Assembly (NCBI GenBank): GCA_025526995.1
Contig: JAHLKG010000024.1
Location: forward strand, 186,001-250,000
Length of the DNA stretch: 64,000 bases
DNA from: Powellomyces hirtus
Taxonomy: Eukaryota; Chytridiomycota; Chytridiomycetes; Spizellomycetales; Powellomycetaceae
Reading direction: 5' to 3'
In this document: in pieces, positions 35,504 through 49,066 of the stretch
Numbering within the stretch: position 1 is the first letter of the stretch
How the letters are laid out: each line of letters starts with the position of its first letter
Program-made: the position numbers and the translations under genes
Notes under the pieces: model-generated
Told to the model about the DNA's origin: nothing
Seen by the model: only the letters and a program-made list of their open reading frames with translations
Database searches by the model: none

Positions 35504-35778
35504 TGTAATGAGGCGTGGCTCGCCAGCCTAAGCCTAGATACGCGTCGGGAAGGGTCCGGCGCGAGATGGATGCTAGCGTCAGCATCCCAAAGGGTACTAG
35601 ACCTCAGGGATGGCCACGGATGGTCATCACGTGACCGGGACCGCCCCGGGGTCCAGAAGAAAAGTAGGAATACTCCAACGAGGGCGTATTCAAGACGTAG
35701 AGATCTTACAGTAGAATTAGAGATAGGGAATTCCCGAATAGAAGACTAGACTCTGGCAACGGACCTAGTATTATTACA
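35504..35778 (+). repeat. 5' LTR of the gypsy element
   Basis: 275 bp, TG...CA ends. It is followed at once by TGGTAGCACCAC, the expected place and form (TGG start) of a tRNA primer-binding site; the primer tRNA was not identified. Confidence 0.93.
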
Positions 35779-35797: not shown

Positions 35798-38700
35798 ATG
35801 ACAACAATGGCACGTAGCACCAGGAACAGCCCAATGGCAGTAGGAGAACCCGAAATCGACACACCGACCGACAACCCCGTCGCAATGTTGGCTGCACAAT
35901 TGGCGGAGACCCAACGCCTACTGCAGGAGCAGATCGCAATGGGAAAGGCCCGCTTCGAAGCCCTTCTCTCAAGGATTCCGACTCCAGTCCAACCAGCGGT
36001 TGCAACACCGCACGTCGACATCATCCTGGCGGAAGAAAACCGCGCACGAATGCAAGCCGAGAAGAAACGCCGCAAGAACCTTCGCAAGCAGCTGACACAC
36101 TTCGACGGAAAAGGGAACAGTGAAGAAATGGTGTCAAAGGTCGATGAGTTCTTGAAGGTCCACACGCGCTACCTTGAGGCAACCGACTTCAGGACGGACC
36201 ACCGGGATGTTGACCACATCTCGGGATACCTCAAGGAAACCGCCGACGAGTGGTGGCAAATGCTCAGAGATGCCGGCGACCAGCCCAAGACATTGGAAGA
36301 ATTCACGAGGATCCTCCGCGTCCGCTTCTTATTGGAATGTTGAGACTTGCGTACTCAACGTTTGGTCCTTACATTAGATCCTTACTTGGATTCTCCGACT
36401 AGAACGCGTGACCACTATACCAGTAACGCTAAGAGCTGAATTGGATCACATCTGATCACGTGATTGGAGAAAAAGTAGATTAGAACGCTCGAAGCGAGAC
36501 ATTACCGATAAGACTTTAAGACAAAAATACATTCACATACATTACATCTCCGTGCATCTGACAACGCTGCACCGTCATCTGCATCATAGAACAGCTCTGT
36601 AAACTCCCCCTTTACAAAGTATACTGGGGGCCACATCGAATTCGGCCAATCCTCTGCAATTCCGATAAAGTACTGGAAGTGCCGATATCTCCAATAGGTT
36701 ATGAGCCCTGAGACCGGTCGAATTCGAATCATTCTCCCTTCGTAAAACCTGTAAACTACAAGTCTTCCGTCGAAATTCAAGTGCCAAGAAAGTACCGAGC
36801 ACACCGTCAAGATGCCTACTGCAAGATCTCCCATTCAAGGAGTGCAGACCCGCCAACAAGCCCGTCAAGCCACACGAGAAGCCCAACGGGGTCCTGACGC
36901 TGAAGAAGACGTTAATATCGATGCCTCGATCTACCATGATTCCCACAACGCAGATGCCAAAGTGGATGAGATGAATCATGGAGAAATTCATGCAGACTCG
37001 GCGATAGTACCGACTGAAGTACCGACTGACATTGTCATGGAAATTCTACAGAGGTTCAAGATGGAAATCGACGGAAAGCTCGACCATCGGATGGACAGGT
37101 TGGAGAGGACTTTATTGACTAGTTCAAACCCTCTCGCTACATCAATTTCCCATCAACAACCCAAGAAATACAAAAGGCCTCATATCGGTGGTCATCCCAC
37201 GGCCGTTTCACCAATGAGAAGCCCAAAAGCGGGCCTTGAGTACCCTTTTCTACATCAACAAATTACTCACGGCGAAGTTGGAGCCCCAGTTGCCCCTCAC
37301 TTTCGTCCGCCTTCCCCGACAGAGAGCACAACAACTACGAGCAGCAGAAAGAGCGATGATCGCGACGCACAACGTACATCATTTGCATACTTCAAATCTG
37401 CGATCGATGCAGTATCTACATTCGACAGGACGGGAAATCTCTCAAAACTCGCCGACTTCGTCGATCAACTTACCCTAGTCTTTCGCCTAAAACCTGTATC
37501 TGAAGAAGAACAACTCTCATTCATCTTCACAAAGCTCTCTGGCGAAGCAAAACAATGGTATCGTAATCACCAGAAAGATGCAGAACAAGGGATGGTGGAG
37601 TCCATTACAGATTGGGAATCCTTCAAGCCTCCCTTCCTCTTGCATTACCAACCAACCGATCACAAAGAAACTTTGCTCACTCAACTTGAAAGACTCCGAC
37701 AAGGAAGTCATTCCATCTCGCAGTACAATACCTCATTCACGAAGATCACAAGTCAAATCCCCTTGAAGGTGCCGTTTGAAATCTACAAGTGGTTTTACCT
37801 TCGCGGAATGAATGAACATCATGCAGAGCTCGTCAGAACTCAAAGTTTCAAGGATCTCCATGGCCTCATGGCAGCTGCCAAGCGTCTGGATAACGGAAGT
37901 AACAAGAGTAACCAAAACAACCGTTTCGCCAATAAGAGCGAAAACATCGCGCTTGAAGCCCAACCTTCAAAGAAAGACGGCTCAAGTCACAAGAAGACCG
38001 ACGCAAAGAAGACCACAGACTCGAAGAAGAGACAGAACTTCCCCTGTTGGTTATGCAATTCGAATGAACATACCCCATTCAATTGTCCCCTCAAAGCCAA
38101 GGCAGTCGAAGCCTTAAAACCTGCTGCTAATGCCAACATTGCAGAAGCACATAACGCCACTACATTGGCTTACCTGGATTCGGGCTGCTCACAGCACATG
38201 ACGAATGACATTTCCATTCTCAAATCCTACGAAGAGCACTCAACGTGCGTCAGATTTGGAAATAACGCCTTTCTTGATGCCGAAGCGAAAGGGAACGCTA
38301 TCTTGAAGCTTCCAGATGGAGATGTACCCCTCACTGATGTTCTCTACGTTCCGAAACTCGCCAAGACTCTCATTTCGGTCTCCGCACTCACCAAAGATGG
38401 AAAGAGAGTCACCTTTGAAGATGAGAGCGCTATCATTCAAGACTGCAATGGCACTACGAATGACATCACCATACCTCTCGTTCAAGGAATGTATCACATC
38501 TCGCCAACTCCGATGGCTTTTGCTACTCAAACCCGCTCAAGGACAAATGCGTCCAATGTACCAACACACGCGTCGAAAAATACATCTACTGAATTGACAA
38601 AATGGACAAACGCGTCCAATGTACCGACACACACGTCCGATACATCGATTCAAGCGCTCAACCTGTTGACAGATGCTACCGGCATCACAGTCACGCGTTC

Positions 38701-41700
38701 TACCCCGCTCTAAGCCACGTCGGAGGGGCCGGCCGCCCCAAATGGGGGGCCAGCCGGCCCCATACTAGAGAGTGAGGGGGCTGGCCGCCCCAATTTGGGG
38801 CTGGCTGTGGTGGGGGGCTGGCCGCCCCAAAAGCATCGGATGGTGCCGAGGATAGTGCCCCCTCGGGGGCACCATCCGCCAATGGCGCCGCCGCCACCGC
38901 TGCTTTGGCGGCTTCTTCTGGGGCTGGTTCTGGTCCCTCCTCTCCTGTCAACGAAGGAACCCTCTGGCATCACCGATTGGGCCATCCTGGCACTCACATC
39001 AGGAAGCAACTCAAGCTCCCAATGACCAACGAAGTCTGCAAAGGTTGCAAATTTGGTAAGCACAAGCGCTCACCATTCAACGGTACGATGACACGGTCCA
39101 AGACGCCACTCAATCGCCTACATTTTGACCTAAACGGTCCGCACATACCCACGGTTGGCGATGAGAAATATGCCCTCGTTGTGATCGATGACTATTCACG
39201 CTTCACATGGATCTTCTTCTTGAAGACGAAGAGCGAATCTACTGCAAAATTGATTGAATTCATCAATTTCATCGAAAAACAGACCAACGAAAGGGTCAGA
39301 CGACTTCATTCCAATCGAGGGGGGGAGTTTGTCAATCACGATCTGAAAGAATTCATTTCGAAAAAGGGCATTCTGCACGAACTCACCGCTGCAGATTCCC
39401 CACAGTCCAACAGTGTAGCTGAAAGGTTCAACCTCACTCTGTTCGACACCATTCGTTCATTGGAACACTCATACGGCATCCCGAAACAACTCTGGACAGA
39501 GTTAGCGGCTACATCAGTCTACATACGGAATCGCCTACCCCACAAGTCCAATAACAACATTTCGCCGTACGAACGGCTCAATGGCAAAGAGCCCTCACTT
39601 TCTCACCTTCGTGTGATTTGGGCCGATGCTTTCGTGCATCTTGTCAAGAGAAAACAAGTCTCAAAGTTGGCACCGCGCGCCACACGTCTCAAACTCATCG
39701 GTTACGAATTTGACGGCGCTTACCGCTGTTGGGATGACAACCGTCAAGAAATAGTCATTTCTCGCGATGTAACGTTCGACGAAACCTCAGCACTTGAACT
39801 AGGGAAAGACTACATTCCGCCCGAAGAACTCTACGAAGTCGAAGAGATTCTCGACTCACGTGATGGCCCGGAAGGCCCCGAATTCCTCTGCAAATGGCTA
39901 GGATTTGAAGACGAAGATAATACATGGGAACCGCTTGAAAATGTCAATCATTTGACGGTCTTTGCTGACTACATCAACGAGAAGACGGCGATCGCTCTTT
40001 TGGCTGCAAGTACCGAAGAACCTCAAACCTACAAACAAGCGCTCTCATCAGACAACGCGCCGAAGTGGACCGAGGCCATAAATGCCGAATTGAAGTCCCT
40101 TCATACCAATGAAACATGGGAAGTCATTAACCCCAAATCCTTACCGCACAATCAACGGCCCATCCGCACTAAGTGGGTATTCAAGATTAAGCGAGACCTG
40201 AATGGTCAACCCCAACGATACAAGGCCCAGCTTGTAGTGAAAGGCTTCGAACAACGCTACGGCATCGACTACAACGAAACCTACGCTCCGGTTGCCAAGA
40301 TAGTTACCCAACGCGTCCTCCTCGCTCTCGCCGCCAGTCTAGGCTTGAAATGCCATCAAATGGATGTAGTAACCGCATTCCTGAATGGGATCGTTACCGA
40401 GACCATCCTAATCTATGCCCCTGAAGGCTCTGGCTTTCCGCCCGGGACCATCCTTCGACTCCGAAAGGCCCTTTACGGTCTGAAACAAGCCCCGCGCAAA
40501 TGGTACTCCCTACTTCACAAAGAACTGACTTCTTTGGGATTCAAGCGCCTGGCAAATGACAATGCCGTCTACATCAGAACTCTACCTGAAAGTGACTCAT
40601 CGCAGTACATCTCCGTCTACGTCGACAATCTCCTCATCTTCGCAAAGACCAAATCGGAAATCTCGTCAATCAAGACATCCCTGCACAACGAGTTCAACAT
40701 GACAGACCTAGGCGAAGTCAACCACTACCTAGGAATGAGAGTTCGACGCGATTACCCAAAGCACGTCATCTATCTTGATCAAGAGTCATATGTAAATGAC
40801 ATCCTTGAGCGCTTTGGTATGCAAGATTGCAAGCCCGTCAACACTCCGATGGACCAGACCAAGCTCAAACCCTACGAAGTCGAAAATACAAAGACTTCAC
40901 CTAACCCGCAAGAAGGAGAATATTGCGAAATTGTTGGTTCTCTCATGTACCTGATGATATGCACGCGTCCTGACATCGCTGTCGCAGTCAGTATGCTTTC
41001 TCGCTTTGCAAGCAACCCTTCACCTCAACATCTGCAAGCTGCAAAGCGCGTTCTTCGCTATCTACGGGGAACATCAGATTACAGCCTCTGCATCGGCGGA
41101 AATAACGTCACCCTTCACGGCTACAGCGATGCCGATTGGGGAAACAACATCATTGATTGACGGTCAATCACTGGCTACCTTTTCTACATTGGAAATGCGG
41201 GCCCCGTTACTTGGGCTTTGAAGCGCCAACCCACCGTTGCTCTCTCATCTACCGAAGCTGAATACATGGCACTTTCCTTTGCCACTCAAGAGACAATTTG
41301 GCTTCACTCACTTCTGCAAGAAATCCAAATCCCTGAATATCTCGATGAAAATGCTCGACCTACAACAATCTACAAAGACAATCAGTCATGCATCTCGTTG
41401 GCAATGAATCCCGTGCATCACGCCCGTACCAAGCACATCGACATTTGACATCACTTCATTCGTGATCACATTGACAAGGCGATTCATCTGGAGTATTTAC
41501 CCACCGCTGAAATGGTAGCCGACTCACTTACGAAGCCTTTACCGGCCCCGGCATTCAAATACCATTGCGAAAGCATGTGCATCAAGCACTACGACAACAA
41601 CATCACGCCAATGACGAAAGCGTCCATGACGGAGCTCCCGAATGAGTAAAATCCCATCATCGCGGATCGATTGCTCAGACAGGAATTGTATTGGAATGTT

Positions 41701-42749
41701 GAGACTTGCGTACTCAACGTTTGGTCCTTACATTAGATCCTTACTTGGATTCTCCGACTAGAACGCGTGACCACTATACCGGTAACGCTAAGAGCTGAAT
41801 TGGATCACGTGTGATCACGTGATTGGAGAAAAAGTAGATTAGAACGCTCAAAGCGAGACATTACCGAAAAGACTTTAAGACAAAAATACATTCACATACA
41901 TTACATCTCCATGCATCTGACAACCCTACACCGTCATCTGCATCATAGAAGAGCTCTGTAAACCCCCCCTTTACGAAGTATACTGGGGGCCACATCGAAT
42001 TCGGCCAATCCTCTGCAATTCCGATAAAGTACTGGAAGTGCCGATATCTCCAATACTTCTACCCTGCCAACTTACGAAACACAGCAGAAGCAAAGATGAA
42101 GCGGCTGGTTTTCACTAATAGCATATCGGAGTATATTGCCAAGTTCAATACCCTTTGGGCCCAGATCGCGACGCTCGACAACAAGGAGCGGCTTACCCCA
42201 AGGCAAGAGCGTGACTATTTCTTAACAGGATTCTCGACCAACCACGTCGGCCAGCGCATTCCGGACCACTGCTATGCCGCAATCATGAGGAATAATGGCG
42301 CCGAGATCCCAATCACCGAGCTACAGAACGAAGCCCTACTATGCTACAGGATTCGAGGCTATGCGGACGATGTCGCGCGGGTAACCCCCGACGGAAGGAG
42401 GCGTCAGTACTCTGCAGTCCAGCCGGCTCAGGTACATCGAGGGAACTACCAAGCACAAGAAAGGGGACGCCACACCCCCTATGGCTCAGGTTGTCCCACG
42501 CGCGGCACGGACAACCACCAAGGGATCTCAGACCGTAAGCGTATCACCTATAATGAACGTCGTGAACGCAATGAATGTTTCAACTGCGGAGGCAAGGGGC
42601 ACTATGCCTGTGGGTGCTCAGCAGGTAGGGGTAAGACCGGTGGGCATAGAACGTTCGCCGCCCCTGTAGAGATCACCGAAGAGCCAGGGGACAACGTGGT
42701 CAGCGACGGAGGCTCCGTCAACAGCTCGGATTTTCGCCCCGGGTGCTGA
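35798..42749 (+). CDS. Gypsy gag, split by copia insertion
   Basis: The 5' part (35798-36329) and 3' part (42061-42749) are one frame once the inserted element and the duplicated CTTCT are disregarded; together about 406 codons. The N-terminal part has a helical region (LAAQLAETQRLLQEQIAMGK) and a capsid-like segment (ETADEWWQMLRD). The 3' part continues the retrotransposon gag domain (SISEYIAKFNTLWAQIATLD) and ends with a CCHC zinc knuckle (CFNCGGKGHYACGC). The host copy can no longer make intact Gag. The protease frame overlaps the gag end and lies in the -1 frame relative to gag. Confidence 0.85.
36330..36696 (+). repeat. 5' LTR of the copia element
   Basis: 367 bp with terminal inverted TATTGGA/TCCAATA. 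The 3' LTR at 41689-42055 is the same length and about 97% identical by eye. Confidence 0.93.
36697..36710 (+). promoter_or_regulatory. Copia primer-binding site, matching initiator tRNA-Met anticodon arm
   Basis: Directly after the 5' LTR lies GGTTATGAGCCCTG. Its reverse complement CAGGGCTCATAACC equals the anticodon stem-loop of yeast-type initiator tRNA-Met (CAT anticodon inside). This resembles Drosophila copia, which is primed by a half-tRNA cut in the anticodon loop rather than by the tRNA 3' end. Confidence 0.75.
36812..38713 (+). CDS. Copia Gag-protease
   Basis: A 633-codon frame. About residues 185-370 form the retrotransposon gag domain (FTKLSGEAKQWYRNHQKDAE; LLTQLERLRQGSHSISQYN), followed by a Lys-rich linker. 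A CCHC knuckle (CWLCNSNEHTPFNC) begins at about residue 412. The aspartic protease active site LDSGCSQHM begins at about residue 452, with LISVSALTKDGKRVTF downstream. The frame stops at TAA 38711-38713, before the integrase, so pol is in a separate frame beyond a GC-rich insert. In most copia elements gag-pol is one frame, so a frame break is likely damage or an unusual linker. Confidence 0.85.
   Translation: MPTARSPIQGVQTRQQARQATREAQRGPDAEEDVNIDASIYHDSHNADAKVDEMNHGEIHADSAIVPTEVPTDIVMEILQRFKMEIDGKLDHRMDRLERTLLTSSNPLATSISHQQPKKYKRPHIGGHPTAVSPMRSPKAGLEYPFLHQQITHGEVGAPVAPHFRPPSPTESTTTTSSRKSDDRDAQRTSFAYFKSAIDAVSTFDRTGNLSKLADFVDQLTLVFRLKPVSEEEQLSFIFTKLSGEAKQWYRNHQKDAEQGMVESITDWESFKPPFLLHYQPTDHKETLLTQLERLRQGSHSISQYNTSFTKITSQIPLKVPFEIYKWFYLRGMNEHHAELVRTQSFKDLHGLMAAAKRLDNGSNKSNQNNRFANKSENIALEAQPSKKDGSSHKKTDAKKTTDSKKRQNFPCWLCNSNEHTPFNCPLKAKAVEALKPAANANIAEAHNATTLAYLDSGCSQHMTNDISILKSYEEHSTCVRFGNNAFLDAEAKGNAILKLPDGDVPLTDVLYVPKLAKTLISVSALTKDGKRVTFEDESAIIQDCNGTTNDITIPLVQGMYHISPTPMAFATQTRSRTNASNVPTHASKNTSTELTKWTNASNVPTHTSDTSIQALNLLTDATGITVTRSTPL
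38720..38842. repeat. GC-rich palindromic repeats between copia protease and integrase
   Basis: The core GGCTGGCCGCCCCAA (or GGCCGGCCGCCCCAA) occurs three times, partly as inverted copies (CCAGCCGGCCCC). Composition differs strongly from the rest of the element. The frame changes across it. Confidence 0.7.
38905..41650 (+). pseudogene. Copia Pol: integrase, chromodomain, RT, RNase H (inactivated)
   Basis: Frame open from about 38776 to 41160, then continued through two TGA codons (41158-41160, 41446-41448) to about 41647. In order: integrase zinc site (WHHRLGH...CKGC); integrase core, where the second catalytic Asp is Asn (HSNRGGEF, codon 39313-39315) and the Glu is retained (SNSVAERF); an HP1-like chromodomain (39832-39984); RT with the box read as YVDN in place of YVDD (codon 40627-40629); RNase H (TVALSSTEAEYMAL). 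The TGAs fall at positions where the family usually has Arg (for example KHIDI-R-HHFIRD). This copy cannot be autonomous. Confidence 0.9.
39832..39984 (+). other. Chromodomain inside copia Pol
   Basis: The segment begins YEVEEILDSRDG and continues FLCKWLGFEDEDNTWEPLEN. The HP1-type aromatic-cage positions are Tyr (first), Trp (KW) and Phe (GF), and the NTWEP signature is present. It sits between the integrase C-terminal part and RT. Chromodomains are characteristic of gypsy chromoviruses, not of copia elements. Confidence 0.85.
41689..42055 (+). repeat. 3' LTR of the copia element
   Basis: 367 bp, followed by the CTTCT duplication and the resumed gypsy gag. No clear polypurine tract precedes it; the flank reads CTCAGACAGGAATTG. 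Confidence 0.93.
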
Positions 42750-43239
42750 ACGTTTGCACCGTCTCAGTACCCCAACCCCGGATGCAAGACAAGATCCCCA
42801 CGGACAGGCTGGGACCCCGCATCCACAGGAAGACATTTGTGGTTCACGGGAAGATACAAGGGCACTTTGCCCGCATCCTAATCGACACCGGGTGTAACAC
42901 CCTGATCATCAGCGACACTTGGGCAGCCAAGCACGGCCTCCGGACCTACACCTCTCCAACCCCGCTGGAGGTCCGATGGGGCGATAGAGCGGGAAACTAC
43001 GGTGCAACAAAGATGACCTGTGGGGACCTCGCGGTGTTCACCGAGGAGAAGATTACCTACCGGGAAGACACCGTACCGTTCATGGTCGCACCGATCAGGT
43101 CAATGTCATACTCGGTTTACCATTCATATTGGGATTGGACGTCCGAGGGCTTTTCGACCAAGAGGGCTTCCCAACGATGACGTTCTACCACGACGGCCAG
43201 ACCCTCAGCCTTCGAGCCAAATCGACTAATCACCATTGA
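42743..43239 (+). pseudogene. Gypsy protease region (frameshift plus stop)
   Basis: An aspartic protease with active site ARILIDTGCNTLIISD at about 42868-42915. The frame opens just before the gag stop. Near 43090-43105 the reading shifts: downstream protease-like sequence (VNVILGLPFILGLDV) is in another frame. That second frame then meets one TGA (43237-43239), after which it continues directly into the RT frame. One frameshift and one point nonsense change therefore separate protease from RT. Confidence 0.8.
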
Positions 43240-46200
43240 GAAGCACCGTCCGCGTGCGTAGCCCGCCTGCTCTCCCCACAAGAGATACGGCCCCGCAGAT
43301 TCCAGCCGGCGAAGCCAGCACTCAATGCAGAAGGAATCTACACGGCCAAGCAATGGAAACGCTTGATGAAGAAGGGCGAGATCACTGGAGTCTTCGAGGT
43401 ACACATCGTAGATGCAATTCCAGTCGTAGAGGCTCAATTCGTACGGACGGTCGACGTCAAGAAAAGGGCAATCTTGGAGGAACACTGCCACACCAACGCC
43501 GAAGCCAAGACGGCAGATCAAGAGGACCCGCTAGAGGCACTGCCGGCCGACCACCCACTCCGACCGACCTTAGAGAAATACGTCACGACGCTATTCACCA
43601 AACAGTCAGGCATGCCTCTGGACCGAGGCGAAGACAATTTCACCATTCGGCTCAAACCCGGCTCGAAGCCCGTGATGCAGCCACTCCGGCATTTGAGCCC
43701 GGACGAATTGGACGAGCTCGGCCAGCAGATGCAGCACTTAATGGACAAGGGTTGGATCTCACACTCTCGCAGCACGTGGGGCGCGCCCGTCCTATTTGCC
43801 CCAAAGAAGGACGGCGGCTTACGCTGCTGCATTGACTACCGGGCACTGAACAAGATGACCCACAAGGATGCCACGCCACTTCCGAACCTCTCGGAGCTGC
43901 GCAACAGGCTTGTCAACATGCGGGTATTTACCGCGATCGACATCCGCGACGCGTACCACTGCATCATGATCCGACCGGAAGACAGGGAGAAAACAGCGTT
44001 CCAAACACGTTTTGGACATTTCGAATACAATGTTCTACCTTTCGGCTTAACTAATGCACCTGCTACATTCCAGCGACTAACCAACAAGCTCTTGGGCAAT
44101 AAGTGCGATGCCTACGTGATCTCATACCTTGACGATATTCTCATATTCAGCACCAACATGAGTTTGCACATTCAGCACGTTGACGAGGTCCTCAAGACCT
44201 TGACAGAACATCGCCTCCACATCAAACCCAGCAAATGTCAATGGGTGGTTGACGAAGTCGAGTTCTGCTGCCACCGAGTCGGCAAGGATGGCCTGAGTAT
44301 CGCCCCCTCCAAGGTGACCGCGGTCCGGGAACGACCTCACCCAACCAACTCCCTGGAGCTCTTTAGCTTCATGGGCCTCGTCAACTATGTCAAGGAATAC
44401 ATTCCCGAGTATGCACAGATTGCCCTGCCACTAACGAACTTGCAATCCGGCAACCGCCCATGGCAGTGGGGTGACGAGGAAGATCGAGCGTTCAATCGCT
44501 TAAAAGAATTATGCTCCTCGGCACCCACCCTAGCGTACTTCGCCCCGGCGCTCGACACCTACTTGTTCACGGACGCATCGGACTACGCCTACGGCGGATG
44601 GCTGGCACAGCCAGCCAAAGGGGATTTCCCTTACCCTCACCCACTACCAACCACCAAATCGGGCTTAGCCAACCTTCCGCAACTTCGCCCGGTGACATAC
44701 TACTCCCACAAGATGCAACCCGCCGAGACCCGATACCCCGTGCATGAACAAGAACTGCTGGGACTCGTCAAATCCATATGCGCCAACCGCCATTACCTCA
44801 TCGGCCGTCCATTCCGCGCGTTTGTTGACCACAAATCCCTGATCTACCTCCAGGAACAACCCCACCTGTCACGTCGCCAAGCAGGCTGGGTCGAGTTCCT
44901 CCAACAGTTCGATTTCTCAGTGGAATACCTCCCCGGCACATGGAATTCGATCGCCGACTTCCTCAGTCGCGACCCGACTTACGCCCCCAAGTGTGCAACC
45001 TGCCAGGCCAAGATCGACGTGGTCACTGCCATTGTGCAGACGGAGAAACCCGTCACGACGCACATGCCGACCGATGCGGACTGGACCCAAGCGCTCGCAT
45101 CGGATGATTTCGGCCAAAACATCTTACTAACCATCAACAGTCCCCCGGAGAACCTATCCGGTCATGCACGCCGATTCCGAACAATGGACTCCCCTCCGCA
45201 CCGATTCTTGATGTACCATGACCGTCGGTACGTCCCCAACAGCTTGCGGGGGCCACTCCTTCAGATTCATCATGACTCCCTCGCGAACGGTGGCCACTCC
45301 GGTGTCCAACGGACGCTCGCCAAACTTCTGGAGTTGTACTACTGGCCCCACATGGAACGTGATGTGTACCAATATGTCCGCACCTGCCCTACCTGCCAAC
45401 GTCACAAGCAAACCGCGCCGATCGGTTTCCTCCGCAGCTTACCGATCCCTGACGCTCGTTGGCAACAGATCGGCATGGATATATTCTTCCCCACGTCAGG
45501 CTCTCAGGGGGGGGAACCTCGGGTAGAGCCCGACGTGACGAAGAACCCTCCGCACCACACCGGCGAGAGACTGACCAGGACGGCAGATGCCGTACTCCTC
45601 ATCGTTGACTACCTTTCATGCCGCGTGATACTCCTACTTACTAACACACGCGCTACAGCTCAGGAGACGGCTCAACTCTTTCTGGAACAGGCATTTCGCC
45701 ACACGGGGTTACCCCACACCATTGTGAGCGATCGGGACCCCAAGTGGCTGTCAGAATTCTGGCGGTACCTCATGCGGGCACTTGACGTCAAGCAAGAACT
45801 CTCGTCGGCACGACACCAACAGACCGACGGCAAGGCGGAGAACGCCATCAAGACGATCAAGGGAATCATGGGCCCCTTTCTTGACTATGCCAGCTCCAAC
45901 TGGAAGAGTTTACTCCCCACACTCAAGTACAACTACAACCGAACGCCGCAGACGTCGACGGGACTATCCCCTTTCGAGATTGACCTAGGCCGCGTTCCCC
46001 GGGTACCGAACCAATGGGTAGCACCTAACCCCGGAGAGATGATAAGGCAATCAGCACGAACCGCCGTGGAGAGACGGGTTAAGGAATTTGCCGACATGAG
46101 TCGCATCGTGCAGCAACGGCTCCAAGACGCACAGGACCAGCAGGCAAAGTACTACGACCGCAAGAAGCACACAGAAGCATACCGAGAGGGTGACAAGGTC

Positions 46201-46656
46201 TTACTCCATCGTGAGGGTATCGCAATTACTAGCGTCACCACAAGGAACAAAAAGCTGGCTGAACAATGGATTGGGCCATTCACAGTACGCGGCAAGGGCC
46301 CGCATCCTGACACCTACGAGCTCGAACTACCCAAGGAGTTCACCGGGTTGCACCCAGTCTTTCATGTCAGCATTCTGAGACGTTACCATGACCCAGGCGG
46401 TACCCCGTACAGACAGGTCACCGCCCCGCCTGAGCCCGAGAAGGACGAAGACGGTCAGGAGACCTACCAAGTGGACAAGATCCTAAATGCCAGATGGCAC
46501 AGGAACACCGAGCAGTTCTTAGTCAAGCGGACAGGTTACGACAACACCCAGAACACATTGGAGCCGTATGCACATGTGAAGGGAACGACCGCACTGGAAG
46601 AATGGCTCCGGGAGCACCCCGGAGAGGACCGCGGCCAAAGGCTAGCGGCCAGGTGA
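43240..46656 (+). CDS. Gypsy Pol: RT, RNase H, integrase, degenerate chromodomain
   Basis: Open for more than 1,130 codons. RT has the intact YLDD box (SYLDDILIFS) and LPFGLTNAPATFQ; RNase H has FTDASDYAYGGWLAQ and DHKSLIYLQ. The integrase zinc module is HHDSLANGGHSG...CPTCQRHK, and the catalytic residues are D (GMDIFF), D (VSDRDPKW) and E (TDGKAENAIK), all present. The C-terminus has a GPF/Y-type motif (QWIGPFTVRGKGP) and a chromodomain-like tail (TYQVDKILNARWHR), in which the KW cage Trp is Arg (KRTGY) and NTWEP reads NTLEP. RT and integrase look catalytically intact even though protease and gag are broken. Confidence 0.92.
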   Translation, partial: EAPSACVARLLSPQEIRPRRFQPAKPALNAEGIYTAKQWKRLMKKGEITGVFEVHIVDAIPVVEAQFVRTVDVKKRAILEEHCHTNAEAKTADQEDPLEALPADHPLRPTLEKYVTTLFTKQSGMPLDRGEDNFTIRLKPGSKPVMQPLRHLSPDELDELGQQMQHLMDKGWISHSRSTWGAPVLFAPKKDGGLRCCIDYRALNKMTHKDATPLPNLSELRNRLVNMRVFTAIDIRDAYHCIMIRPEDREKTAFQTRFGHFEYNVLPFGLTNAPATFQRLTNKLLGNKCDAYVISYLDDILIFSTNMSLHIQHVDEVLKTLTEHRLHIKPSKCQWVVDEVEFCCHRVGKDGLSIAPSKVTAVRERPHPTNSLELFSFMGLVNYVKEYIPEYAQIALPLTNLQSGNRPWQWGDEEDRAFNRLKELCSSAPTLAYFAPALDTYLFTDASDYAYGGWLAQPAKGDFPYPHPLPTTKSGLANLPQLRPVTYYSHKMQPAETRYPVHEQELLGLVKSICANRHYLIGRPFRAFVDHKSLIYLQEQPHLSRRQAGWVEFLQQFDFSVEYLPGTWNSIADFLSRDPTYAPKCATCQAKIDVVTAIVQTEKPVTTHMPTDADWTQALASDDFGQNILLTINSPPENLSGHARRFRTMDSPPHRFLMYHDRRYVPNSLRGPLLQIHHDSLANGGHSGVQRTLAKLLELYYWPHMERDVYQYVRTCPTCQRHKQTAPIGFLRSLPIPDARWQQIGMDIFFPTSGSQGGEPRVEPDVTKNPPHHTGERLTRTADAVLLIVDYLSCRVILLLTNTRATAQETAQLFLEQAFRHTGLPHTIVSDRDPKWLSEFWRYLMRALDVKQELSSARHQQTDGKAENAIKTIKGIMGPFLDYASSNWKSLLPTLKYNYNRTPQTSTGLSPFEIDLGRVPRVPNQWVAPNPGEMIRQSARTAVERRVKEFADMSRIVQQRLQDAQDQQAKYYDRKKHTEAYREGDKVLLHREGIAITSVTTRNKKLAEQWIGPFTVRGKGPHPDTYELELPKEFTGLHPVFHVSILRRYHDPGGTPYRQVTAPPEPEKDEDGQETYQVDKILNARWHRNTEQFLVKRTGYDNTQNTLEPYAHVKGTTALEEWLREHPGEDRGQRLAAR

Positions 46657-46734
46657 CGTAAGAGAACCTAGATAGCGAGCTGTACCGTAAATTAACAAGA
46701 GAGATGCTACTTGAGGTAGAGGACATTATAGTGC

Positions 46735-47345
46735 GAGATTCCGGCATCATTGGACGATGGCCGGAGGCTGCTGGGCAGCATACCTCGCTGGGCGAGATGC
46801 CGGCATCGTTGGACGATGGCCGAAGGCTGCTGGGCAGCATACCTCACTGGGTGAGATGCCGGGATCGCTGGGCGATGAGCCGACGGCTTGCCGATGCAAG
46901 GTGACCGGCACCAGATTTGCATGGCGGCGTACCTCGAGACCCGCGGGGACCATGGCCGTGGTACATACCCACGCGAAGGGGAAGAGAAGGGCTTCGGCCA
47001 AGATACCGGCATCGTTTGACGATGGGCCGAAGGTCGCTGGGCGACATACCTCGCTGGACAAGATGTCGGGATCGCTGGGTGATGAGCCGAAGACTGCGAG
47101 GCAGTAGACCTCACAAGGTGAGATGCCGGCATTGTTGGACGATGGCCGAAGACTGCGAGGCAGTAGACCTCACGAGGTGAGATGCCGGCATTGTTGGACA
47201 ATGGCCGAAGGCTGCTGGGCAGTATATCTCGCTGGGCAAGATGCCGGGATCGCTGGGCGATGAGCCGAAGACTGCGAGGCAGTAGACCTCACTAGGTGAG
47301 ATACCGGCATCGTTGGACGATGGCCGGGGAACCGCTGGGCGGTCT
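46735..47345. repeat. Tandem ~60-bp repeat array in the gypsy 3' region
   Basis: About ten imperfect units based on GAGATGCCGGCATCGTTGGA and CTGCTGGGCAGCATACCTCG. Variants alternate GGATCGCTGGGCGATGAGCC with GGCATCGTTGGACGATGGCC. A non-repeat stretch (about 46890-46990) interrupts the array. It lies between pol and the antisense gene; several frames remain open on both strands as a by-product. Confidence 0.85.
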
Positions 47346-47592
47346 TCCCAACGGGGAAGTGTGATGCAGGGCATCTACCATGAGCACCATAGCCGGGAGG
47401 AAGCCAAGTGACATTGGACACAGCGGACGCATACGAAATGCTATAAGGCTCAAGGGAGCACAGCGATGAGAAGGCAAGTACAGCGATGAGATTGTGGTAC
47501 TGAATTTGATTATACGGGCCGAAGGCCAGGCTCCGAAGGAGCAACAGACAACAAGTGAAAGTATGTACAAGAAGGAGGGGGGGGAGAACTAA

Positions 47593-48332
47593 TCAACCAA
47601 TCTTGGTGAAGGAGAATTGGCACCGGTTGCCGTGGCACTGGTCGCCCAACCCGCACCGGAGGGGAGTGTAATTTGCCACATTCATCTTGCTGCGGAGAGA
47701 GCTGAGTTAGTCAGGTAAGACAGCAGTAGGCCGAAGAGTACTACTTACGCGCGGATGTGGCCCATGCAGTGGAGATGGTTGCATGGAAACATGCGGAGGT
47801 CCGCTCCGACATGGTTGCAGCCAGCGAACTGGCACCCAGCGGGGACGGCCGCAAAGAAGAGGACCCGGTCACAGTGGGGGGCGCTGCACGTCAACTGGCC
47901 CTGAGGGCCGTTGTTCTGGAAAACAAAAGGGACAAAGGAACCACACCATCAGGAAGGCATCAGGCCGCATCTCAGCGAAGGGGAACATACCGTGTCGTTG
48001 GCCGCCGCCACGATGCAGGGCCGGCACACCAGATGGTGGCATTCCGACGTAAACATCTTGCCCTTGCGGAAAAGACGGCACTTCCAGCAAGCGGGCAAGT
48101 CGGCCGACCCCTCGGGGGTGGACTTTTCATGGACCGAAGGGTCCTGTAGATAACAAGGGAAGACGGGGAACATGAGACTAATTGCCACAGCCGAGGATGA
48201 GCACCGACCCCTACTTACGCGGGCGGGCTGGGCCCGCTTGGTCGCGCCTTTTGCGAGTTGCTGGGTGGGACGGCGCTTGCCCGCGGTGGTGGTGTCGGAG
48301 GGGAGAGGAGAGTTGTTGACGACGTCGGCCAT
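47593..48332 (-). CDS. Antisense spliced Cys/His-rich RING-like protein of the gypsy element
   Basis: Minus-strand join 48332..48219, 48143..47991, 47915..47749, 47689..47593: 176 aa, four exons, phases 0/0/2 all consistent, stop TGA. Donors are GTAAGT, GTATGT and GTAAGT; acceptors CTACAG, TTCCAG and CCGCAG; introns 75, 75 and 59 nt. Residues 1-38 are basic and disordered. The rest has 14 Cys and many His: CWKC-x12-CHHLVCRPC, then CSAPHC, CQFAGCNH, MFPCNHLHCMGH and finally CGLGDQCHGNRC. The MF-x-CxH-x-C segment occurs twice (MFTSECHHLVCRPC, MFPCNHLHCMGH), suggesting an internal duplication of a zinc-binding unit. It opposes the element's sense strand between pol and the 3' LTR. It could be an E3-like or nucleic-acid-binding accessory factor, or a captured host gene; function unknown. 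Confidence 0.75.
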
Positions 48333-48388
48333 GTTGTTGTGTATGTATGTATGTATGTGTGTGTGTGTGTGTGATGTGTGTGTGTGTC
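48333..48388. repeat. TATG/TG microsatellite
   Basis: Begins with TGTTGT, then (GTAT)n and (GT)n runs with one GATG interruption, ending TGTGTGTGTC. It lies immediately upstream of the antisense gene's ATG (48332), in its promoter or 5' UTR. Confidence 0.9.
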
Positions 48389-48791
48389 GAGCTACAAAGG
48401 AAAGAAGAGCAAGAGGGGGGAGATTTGACGGGCAGTACCTTTTAAAGGCTCAACCTGCTTGGGAACGCTCGGAAATTCAGGTGTTGGTGTTTCATCCCCT
48501 ACGGAGCGCAGCAGATGTTACTTATCGAAATCCACATGGAGGAAGCTACTCGTGATTCATCTAGGGCCCCTGCGAAGAGAGAAATAGACTTTTCGACAAC
48601 TTCGCGCACCCCGAAGGGCGGAGACTACCCGCCGGAGGCTACCGCGACGCGACCCGCACCAGGGCCGCCTCCCCAGCCTCATCTTCCCACAACCACGTCA
48701 GCATCCGTTAACCTGCCGCCGCCCGGCTTAGGCAATCTTCGCCTCGCTGAAGAGATTCAAGCCTAAGAGACAGTCACGAATCTAAGGGGGG

Positions 48792-49066
48792 TGTAATGAG
48801 GCGTGGCTCGCCAGCCTAAGCCTAGATACACATCGGGAAAGGTCCCGCGCGAGATGGATGCTAGCGTCAGCATCCCGAAGGGTACTAGACCTCAGGGATG
48901 GCCACGGATGGTCATCACGTGACCGGGACCGCCCCGCGGTCCAGAAGAAAAGTAGGAATACTCCGACGAGGGCGTATTCAAGATGTAGAGATCTTACAGT
49001 AGAATTAGAGATAGGGAATTCCCGAATAGAAGACTAGACTCTGGCAACGGACCTAGTATTATTACA
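48792..49066 (+). repeat. 3' LTR of the gypsy element
   Basis: 275 bp, preceded by the polypurine tract ending GGGGGG and followed by the ATGAC target duplication. Confidence 0.93.

Follow-up and report, generated by a model that had tools for sequence, protein, structure and literature searches.

A gene lying on the opposite strand to gag-pol can be found between pol, which ends at 46656, and the 3' long terminal repeat (LTR; 48792-49066) of a Ty3/gypsy element in a 64,000-nucleotide stretch (hereafter the window, to which all coordinates refer) of the genome of Powellomyces hirtus (29.26 Mb, 60 contigs), and it is very probably an accessory gene of a chromovirus family that is kept under selection. 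Copies of the version present in the window are referred to as type A, and those of a second version as type B. The conserved layout of the gene, the selection acting on it and the likeness of type B therefore point to a real, selected, spliced antisense gene that occurs as two deeply diverged allelic cassettes. A preliminary description of the window had already proposed an intact, spliceable antisense gene in a fungal chromovirus family, and both the domains of pol and the conservation across copies bear this out.

On re-derivation, the four exons, the two GTAAGT donors and the single GTATGT donor, and a product of 176 amino acids with 14 Cys came out as first described. The coding sequence of 531 nt, which also specifies 9 His, starts on the minus strand with exon 1 (48219..48332, 114 nt), where a low-complexity N-terminus precedes the basic stretch KRRPTQQLAKGATKRA; we take this stretch to resemble a bipartite nuclear localisation signal, and most of its K/R positions are also present in type B. 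Also in exon 1, QQLAKGATKRAQPA is loosely like the histone H3 tail near QLATKAARKSAPA, a likeness perhaps due to chance. Intron 1 (48144..48218, 75 nt, GTAAGT..CAG, phase 0) has a counterpart of 59 nt in type B. Exon 2 (47991..48143, 153 nt) encodes CWKC-x12-CHHLVCRPC, the first RING-like half, and is followed by intron 2 (47916..47990, 75 nt, GTATGT..CAG, phase 0), which measures 74-81 nt across 40 copies. Exon 3 (47749..47915, 167 nt) supplies CSAPHC, then CQFAGC and CNHLHCMGH with a second CxHx2Cx2[CH] unit, while intron 3 (47690..47748, 59 nt, GTAAGT..CAG, phase 2) brings an immediate stop when read unspliced. Exon 4, stop codon included (47593..47689, 97 nt), contains MNVANYTPLRCGLGDQCHGNRCQFSFTKIG. 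The antisense promoter and 5' untranslated region are presumed to lie at 48333..48480 on the minus strand, with TTAAAAGG at 48438-48445; the counterpart in the type B loci L049 and L057 is TTCAAAAGG, and the motif TTAAAAGG alone is not above chance (2 occurrences in the window vs 1.47 expected). On the other side, the 3' flank of the gene (47341..47592, minus strand) has TTGTACATA in common with the type B locus L049.

The argument for the gene rests on its other copies. The intactness of one old copy was rejected as too weak a proof of selection: the LTRs at 35504-35778 and 48792-49066 are 97.1% identical, in line with the difference of about 3% first noted, and since only ~2.5% of random changes in the coding sequence create a stop, an insertion diverged by ~3% would often be open by chance. 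A search with the gene DNA gave 76 first-look candidates, of which 40, the window included, were scored (89-100% identity), and all 40 were aligned. In 28 of the 40 the gene is fully intact: it begins with ATG, stays in frame up to a terminal stop and has GT-AG borders on each of its three introns. Among these 28 the exon 1 lengths differ by whole codons only. At least 69 type-A-like and at least 19 type-B-like places can be found in the genome, the typing being our own reading of the coordinates listed and the counts lower bounds, as one of the underlying searches had 150 of its 237 candidates scored at first look. Type A loci with long flanks have a pol-end match in 20 of 20 cases and an LTR match in 19 of 20, and these copies are therefore retrotransposon-borne. 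In the reverse comparison, 35 of the best 40 of 98 pol-end matches have a gene (type A in 32, type B in 3) on the side where it is expected and no more than 4.5 kb away; copies lacking the region, named at the outset as evidence that would speak against the gene, are thus not the rule. The other five matches are L056, L058, one near the C53 end, L061, and L062. The match of L056 ends in the 3' flank, with a type B gene farther away at C15:379396, and that of L058 ends within the pol-to-gene spacer. L061 and L062 have in common one deletion of nearly the whole gene and are identical over 65 bases past the LTR; because both deletion and flank are common to the two, they are read as a single event duplicated, and were rejected as proof that the gene is dispensable. 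A further element family (L050 and L051, on C38 and C16; pol end ~80%) has a third, degenerate form of the gene, 70.4% identical to type A vs 64.9% to type B.

Regarding selection, the ratio of nonsynonymous to synonymous divergence (dN/dS) was computed, uncorrected, over all 780 pairs of the 40 type A copies. The overall value is 0.449, and it falls from 1.01 in the 45 closest pairs (dS <0.03) to 0.36 in the 170 most distant (dS >0.12). This fall with distance, dN/dS among copies being one of the checks recommended in the preliminary description, speaks for the gene. Variants seen in a single copy comprise 68 nonsynonymous (N), 32 synonymous (S) and 1 stop, and N:S is 33:20 for variants in two to four copies and 21:26 for those in five or more, compared with a neutral N/S of 2.62; the comparison of singletons with the latter class gives a Fisher P of 0.007, to be taken as a guide since the copies are related. 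This pattern fits decay after insertion, with purifying selection acting on those lineages that went on to spread. For a matched set of 20 copies, from which L014 was left out as too short for pol, dN/dS is 0.417 for the gene and 0.327 for a pol piece of 1.8 kb, and 7 of the 20 pol pieces have at least one stop. These values indicate that the antisense gene is under purifying selection comparable to that on pol, which suggests a benefit to the element. The mean pairwise difference is 0.060, 0.031 and 0.079 at codon positions 1, 2 and 3, and 0.075, 0.071 and 0.038 in introns 1, 2 and 3. Among the 40 copies, 11 of 14 Cys codons are invariant vs 65 of 162 other codons; each Cys among the RING-like ligands is kept in 38-40 copies and H75 in all 40.

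At five loci whose pol and LTR are close to those of the window, the gene is of type B instead of type A. Type B exons measure 120/153/167/97 nt vs 114/153/167/97 nt in type A, and its introns 59/76/62 nt (intron 2 being 74 nt in L052) vs 75/75/59 nt, in the same phases. Three type B proteins have 53-55% identity to type A, with 14 of 14 Cys invariant. With the gene of L049 as query, 49 matches were obtained, of which 19 places, down to 72% identity, were assigned to type B, one short 74% match at the C41 start being left unassigned; 13 of the 19 places were aligned, seven of them intact by our own reading, and dN/dS within type B is 0.41. Compared with the window (20 type A loci, 19 for the LTR, and five type B loci), the mean identity is 95.8% for A and 95.7% for B at the pol end and 93.3% and 92.7% in the LTR, whereas for the gene it is 93.3% and 62.5%; when window and L049 are aligned pairwise with gaps, the value is 68.9%. 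The drop in type B is located at ~47490-48590. In 100-bp steps, six type A loci stay at 84-98%, dipping to 84-88% within the tandem repeats and at a simple repeat before the ATG, whereas the five type B loci are at 94% in 47390-47489, then at 83%, at 50-69% over 47590-48389, at 75%, and at 85-90% over 48490-48789. Gag pieces near the expected place in three B elements, one of only 133 bases, are 90.2-96.1% identical to the window.

A gene at a C12 locus is 74.6% identical to type B vs 67.3% to type A, and a pol piece ~1.2-2 kb from it, presumed to belong to the same element, has 76% DNA and 63-67% protein identity to the window. Because the type B gene is closer to the C12 gene despite its window-like pol, the histories of gene and pol disagree, as would be expected if the gene cassette had been exchanged by recombination. 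An origin of type B through faster evolution alone was rejected, since the introns diverge together with the exons and the relationships of gene and pol disagree.

The Cys and His residues of the protein are spaced as CWKC-x12-CHHLVCRPC-x17-CSAPHC, then CQFAGC-x11-CNHLHCMGH, with three further Cys. The C3HC4 order of zinc ligands (C-x2-C-x12-C-x-H-x2-C-x2-C-x17-C-x4-C) is present and conserved in the copies and in the three type B proteins. Unlike in RING domains, however, the last spacing is atypical, being x4 instead of the x2 usual for the last pair in RING C3HC4, the scores stay below the Pfam cut-offs, and a second CxHx2Cx2H unit follows. Six Pfam families are returned for the window protein up to E 10, all of them RING-type, and the same search gave no match to TRP28 (PF04195) or to bZIP. 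The RING-like nature of the protein is thus plausible but weak.

Searches of 5.77 billion proteins, which detect only relatives sharing short exact words, found three relatives, P0001, P0002, and P0003. P0002 and P0003 are P. hirtus gene models (DFJ77DRAFT); P0002 has the joins and length of the type B translation and differs from L059 at 6 of 178 residues, and P0003 deviates from the type B translation in exon 3. P0001 is the 'oncoid' of Powellomyces chytrid fungus MELD virus 1, the same gene as the P. hirtus antisense gene but deposited as an unspliced viral open reading frame (ORF). Since it holds introns 1 and 2 translated, ends at the stop given by intron 3 and is matched throughout by genome copies (90-96% for the ten best, introns included), P0001 is an unspliced reading of the antisense gene. 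No copy identical to P0001 is among the matches listed, the best reaching 95-96%, and most likely P0001 derives from a retrotransposon copy in or beside a viral contig. No relative of the antisense protein was confirmed among the IMG/VR viral contigs, where records of this genome may be absent, and a genome search for the MELD virus with DNA_pol_B_2 (PF03175) gave 0 matches, as did its 14 controls. The viral annotation of the oncoid deserves review, as the comparison suggests an unspliced retrotransposon gene.

As to its mode of action, it can be hypothesized that the host transcribes the antisense gene from integrated DNA, starting at a promoter in the stretch that separates it from the 3' LTR. 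Present in the sense genomic RNA as their complement alone, the three introns would escape splicing and so pass through retrotransposition, and integrated DNA would accordingly be the sole template for a transcript that can give the protein. The encoded protein would be small and zinc-binding, would have two RING-like units and an N-terminus that is basic and probably nuclear, and would aid the element in trans. As its likeliest role, it would counter host silencing or restriction via a RING-like, possibly ubiquitin-related, interaction, a step to which we give somewhat less than an even chance; divergence of the alleles with fixed zinc ligands, together with their swapping, would fit such a role. 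More tentatively still, the gene may be a swappable specificity cassette: within one retrotransposon family, an accessory protein that binds zinc would exist as two old alleles, exchanged by recombination between nearly identical gag-pol-LTR backbones, and a change of the protein would let the element escape host restriction or the repression exerted by a resident copy.

Several observations weigh against an intact, selected gene for a RING-like protein. Twelve of the 40 type A copies are damaged, by a premature stop (L025), a lost stop codon (L030), a length change of the exon 1 C-run (L034, L039, L040, L042, L045, and L047), an exon 3 frameshift with a lost donor (L016), or a lost donor as the only damage (L018, L044, and L046). 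L045 and L047 have also lost a splice site, which in L047, whose start is present, is an acceptor. Random stops in the copies had been named beforehand as a sign against the gene, and damaged copies are a minority. In the six C-run copies the frame is shifted ahead of the conserved part, but an in-frame ATG stands just before a conserved GKRR stretch, where a second start is conceivable. Damage in the form of a frameshift, stop or lost donor is also seen in six of the 13 aligned type B places; the frameshift of L057 is in exon 4. The A-to-B comparison gives a dN/dS of 0.56 overall and of 0.61-0.69 for exons 1-3, indicating loose constraint between the types, with the lowest value, 0.22, in exon 4. 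The sense frame with the shared wobble position has a similar ratio within type A (0.459); it has stops in 39 of the 40 copies and is excluded because of these stops alone. Intron 3 (0.038) varies less than third codon positions (0.079) and introns 1 and 2, which is unexplained. At the protein level, the best Pfam match of the window protein, a RING-type family (E 0.0053), reaches 17.2 bits vs a cut-off of 25.2. The RING scores of P0002 (18.2 bits) and P0001 (17.5 bits) are also below their cut-off of 27.9. A four-protein profile compared with solved chains gave PCGF5 (E 0.18), the CRISPR protein Csf1 (0.33) and RING2 (1.1), none of them significant, and AlphaFold on P0002 with P0001 (a two-sequence alignment) gave a predicted local distance difference test score (pLDDT) of 31.8, too low for a usable fold model. 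Placing the protein in the nucleus or giving it a role in the ubiquitin system amounts to a guess from motifs.

Among the alternatives, a nuclear accessory protein acting against silencing or restriction is given most weight, followed by an HBZ-like self-regulator, and little is left for an RNA-only or passenger role. In the case of self-regulation, which we regard as rather unlikely, the antisense protein (and RNA) would limit the expression or copy number of its own element, and the alleles would be different immunity types. The resemblance in position and splicing to HBZ and APH-2/3/4 (PMC10186651) speaks for it, and strongly different alleles on alike gag, pol and LTRs would be expected if only the specificity of a regulator shifts. 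However, a co-diverged target is missing, as gag near the three B elements is 90.2-96.1% and the LTRs average 92.7% identical to the window, and a gene that aids the spread of the element would more readily account for selection like that on pol. That the transcript acts only as RNA, as an antisense or a small-RNA source with an incidental reading frame, is very improbable: retroviral antisense transcripts do have noncoding regulatory activity (PMC10186651), yet here frame and splice sites are conserved, dN/dS falls with distance and the Cys residues are invariant between alleles at 53-55% identity.

Even smaller is the chance that the functional product is the unspliced ORF, with introns 1 and 2 read through and an end in intron 3. 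P0001 does read through both introns and this frame is open in 11 of the 40 copies, but these are a minority; the introns of A and B differ in length and are poorly similar, the P0002 model is spliced, and exon 4, the most constrained exon between the types, would be lost. The preliminary description had also considered a captured host gene, which finds no support, since the only relatives found in the protein searches are Powellomyces proteins matching copies of this gene. A recent capture, leaving the gene as a passenger, would agree with the presence of introns and with accessory ORFs acquired by transduction in LTR elements (PMC11963269). It is nevertheless improbable in view of the absence of a cellular homologue in the protein searches, limited as these are to relatives sharing short exact words, of the related gene close to a pol with no more than 63-67% protein identity, and of selection over many transpositions; an ancient as opposed to a recent capture is conceivable.

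The carrier is a Ty3/gypsy chromovirus, with the order reverse transcriptase (RT)-RNase H-integrase and a chromodomain at the end of pol. The parts of it described next are all on the plus strand. The 5' LTR (35504..35778) is paired with the 3' LTR (48792..49066), just before which a GGGGGG polypurine-like tract can be found. A probable gag ORF (42096..42749) is assigned by position and has no Pfam match, and an aspartic protease ORF (42743..43180) matches PF13650 with 26.4 bits (cut-off 24.3). The pol ORF (43363..46656), open in the window copy, matches RVT_1, RT_RNaseH, Integrase_H2C2, SH3_Tf2-1 and Chromo (1035-1081, 26.2 bits, cut-off 25.1), while its rve core is below its own cut-off (24.2 vs 32.6 bits). 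The spacer between pol and the gene (46657..47340) holds tandem repeats of 59-60 bp, and the array (46700-47330) differs in length among copies. A copia element (36330..42055) is nested inside the gypsy element, with LTRs at 36330-36696 and 41689-42055 (97%). Its first ORF (36812-38713) matches Ty3_capsid, Retrotrans_gag and also Pol_BBD, and its integrase-RT ORF (38905-41160) has a chromodomain (PF00385, E 2.4e-12) between the SH3-like domain of the integrase and RT, a place that is, to our knowledge, unusual for copia.

In plant Retand elements it is typical to find antisense genes in the interval from pol to the 3' LTR, often together with tandem repeats (PMC11963269). The antisense ORFs of Retand-type elements, also in Grande and RIRE2, lie in the same place as the P. 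hirtus gene, many plant Retand elements have repeats in the spacer too, and a nuclear protein has been reported for the Grande antisense ORF (PMC11963269). The plant ORFs mostly encode TRP28 (PF04195) and reside in non-chromovirus Gypsy elements (PMC11963269), whereas the P. hirtus gene is found in a chytrid chromovirus, encodes a RING-like Cys-rich protein, contains three introns and exists as two swapped alleles; 'intron' is a word that the main text of that paper does not use. Spliced antisense genes also occur in deltaretroviruses, where human T-cell leukaemia virus (HTLV) HBZ and APH-2/3/4 likewise lie antisense in a reverse-transcribing element, close to its 3' LTR, and have been reported to promote latency or to inhibit viral replication or the activity of the LTR (PMC10186651); splicing in P. 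hirtus is predicted from the sequence. Unlike HBZ, the P. hirtus protein has no bZIP match, its presumed promoter lies between gene and LTR, and protein and host are unrelated. Among the open-licence papers listed for antisense LTR-element genes, P. hirtus retrotransposons and MELD virus or adintovirus with Powellomyces, none describes this gene judging by title and abstract, and 'antisense' is absent from the available text of two papers on fungal LTR elements (PMC3248453 and PMC2864245).

While antisense accessory genes are thus already known in plant Gypsy elements and deltaretroviruses (PMC11963269 and PMC10186651), what appears to be new here is the chytrid chromovirus setting, the three introns, the RING-like protein and the swapped alleles. 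With dozens of natural copies in one genome, the role of antisense accessory genes would become testable via the comparison of alleles.
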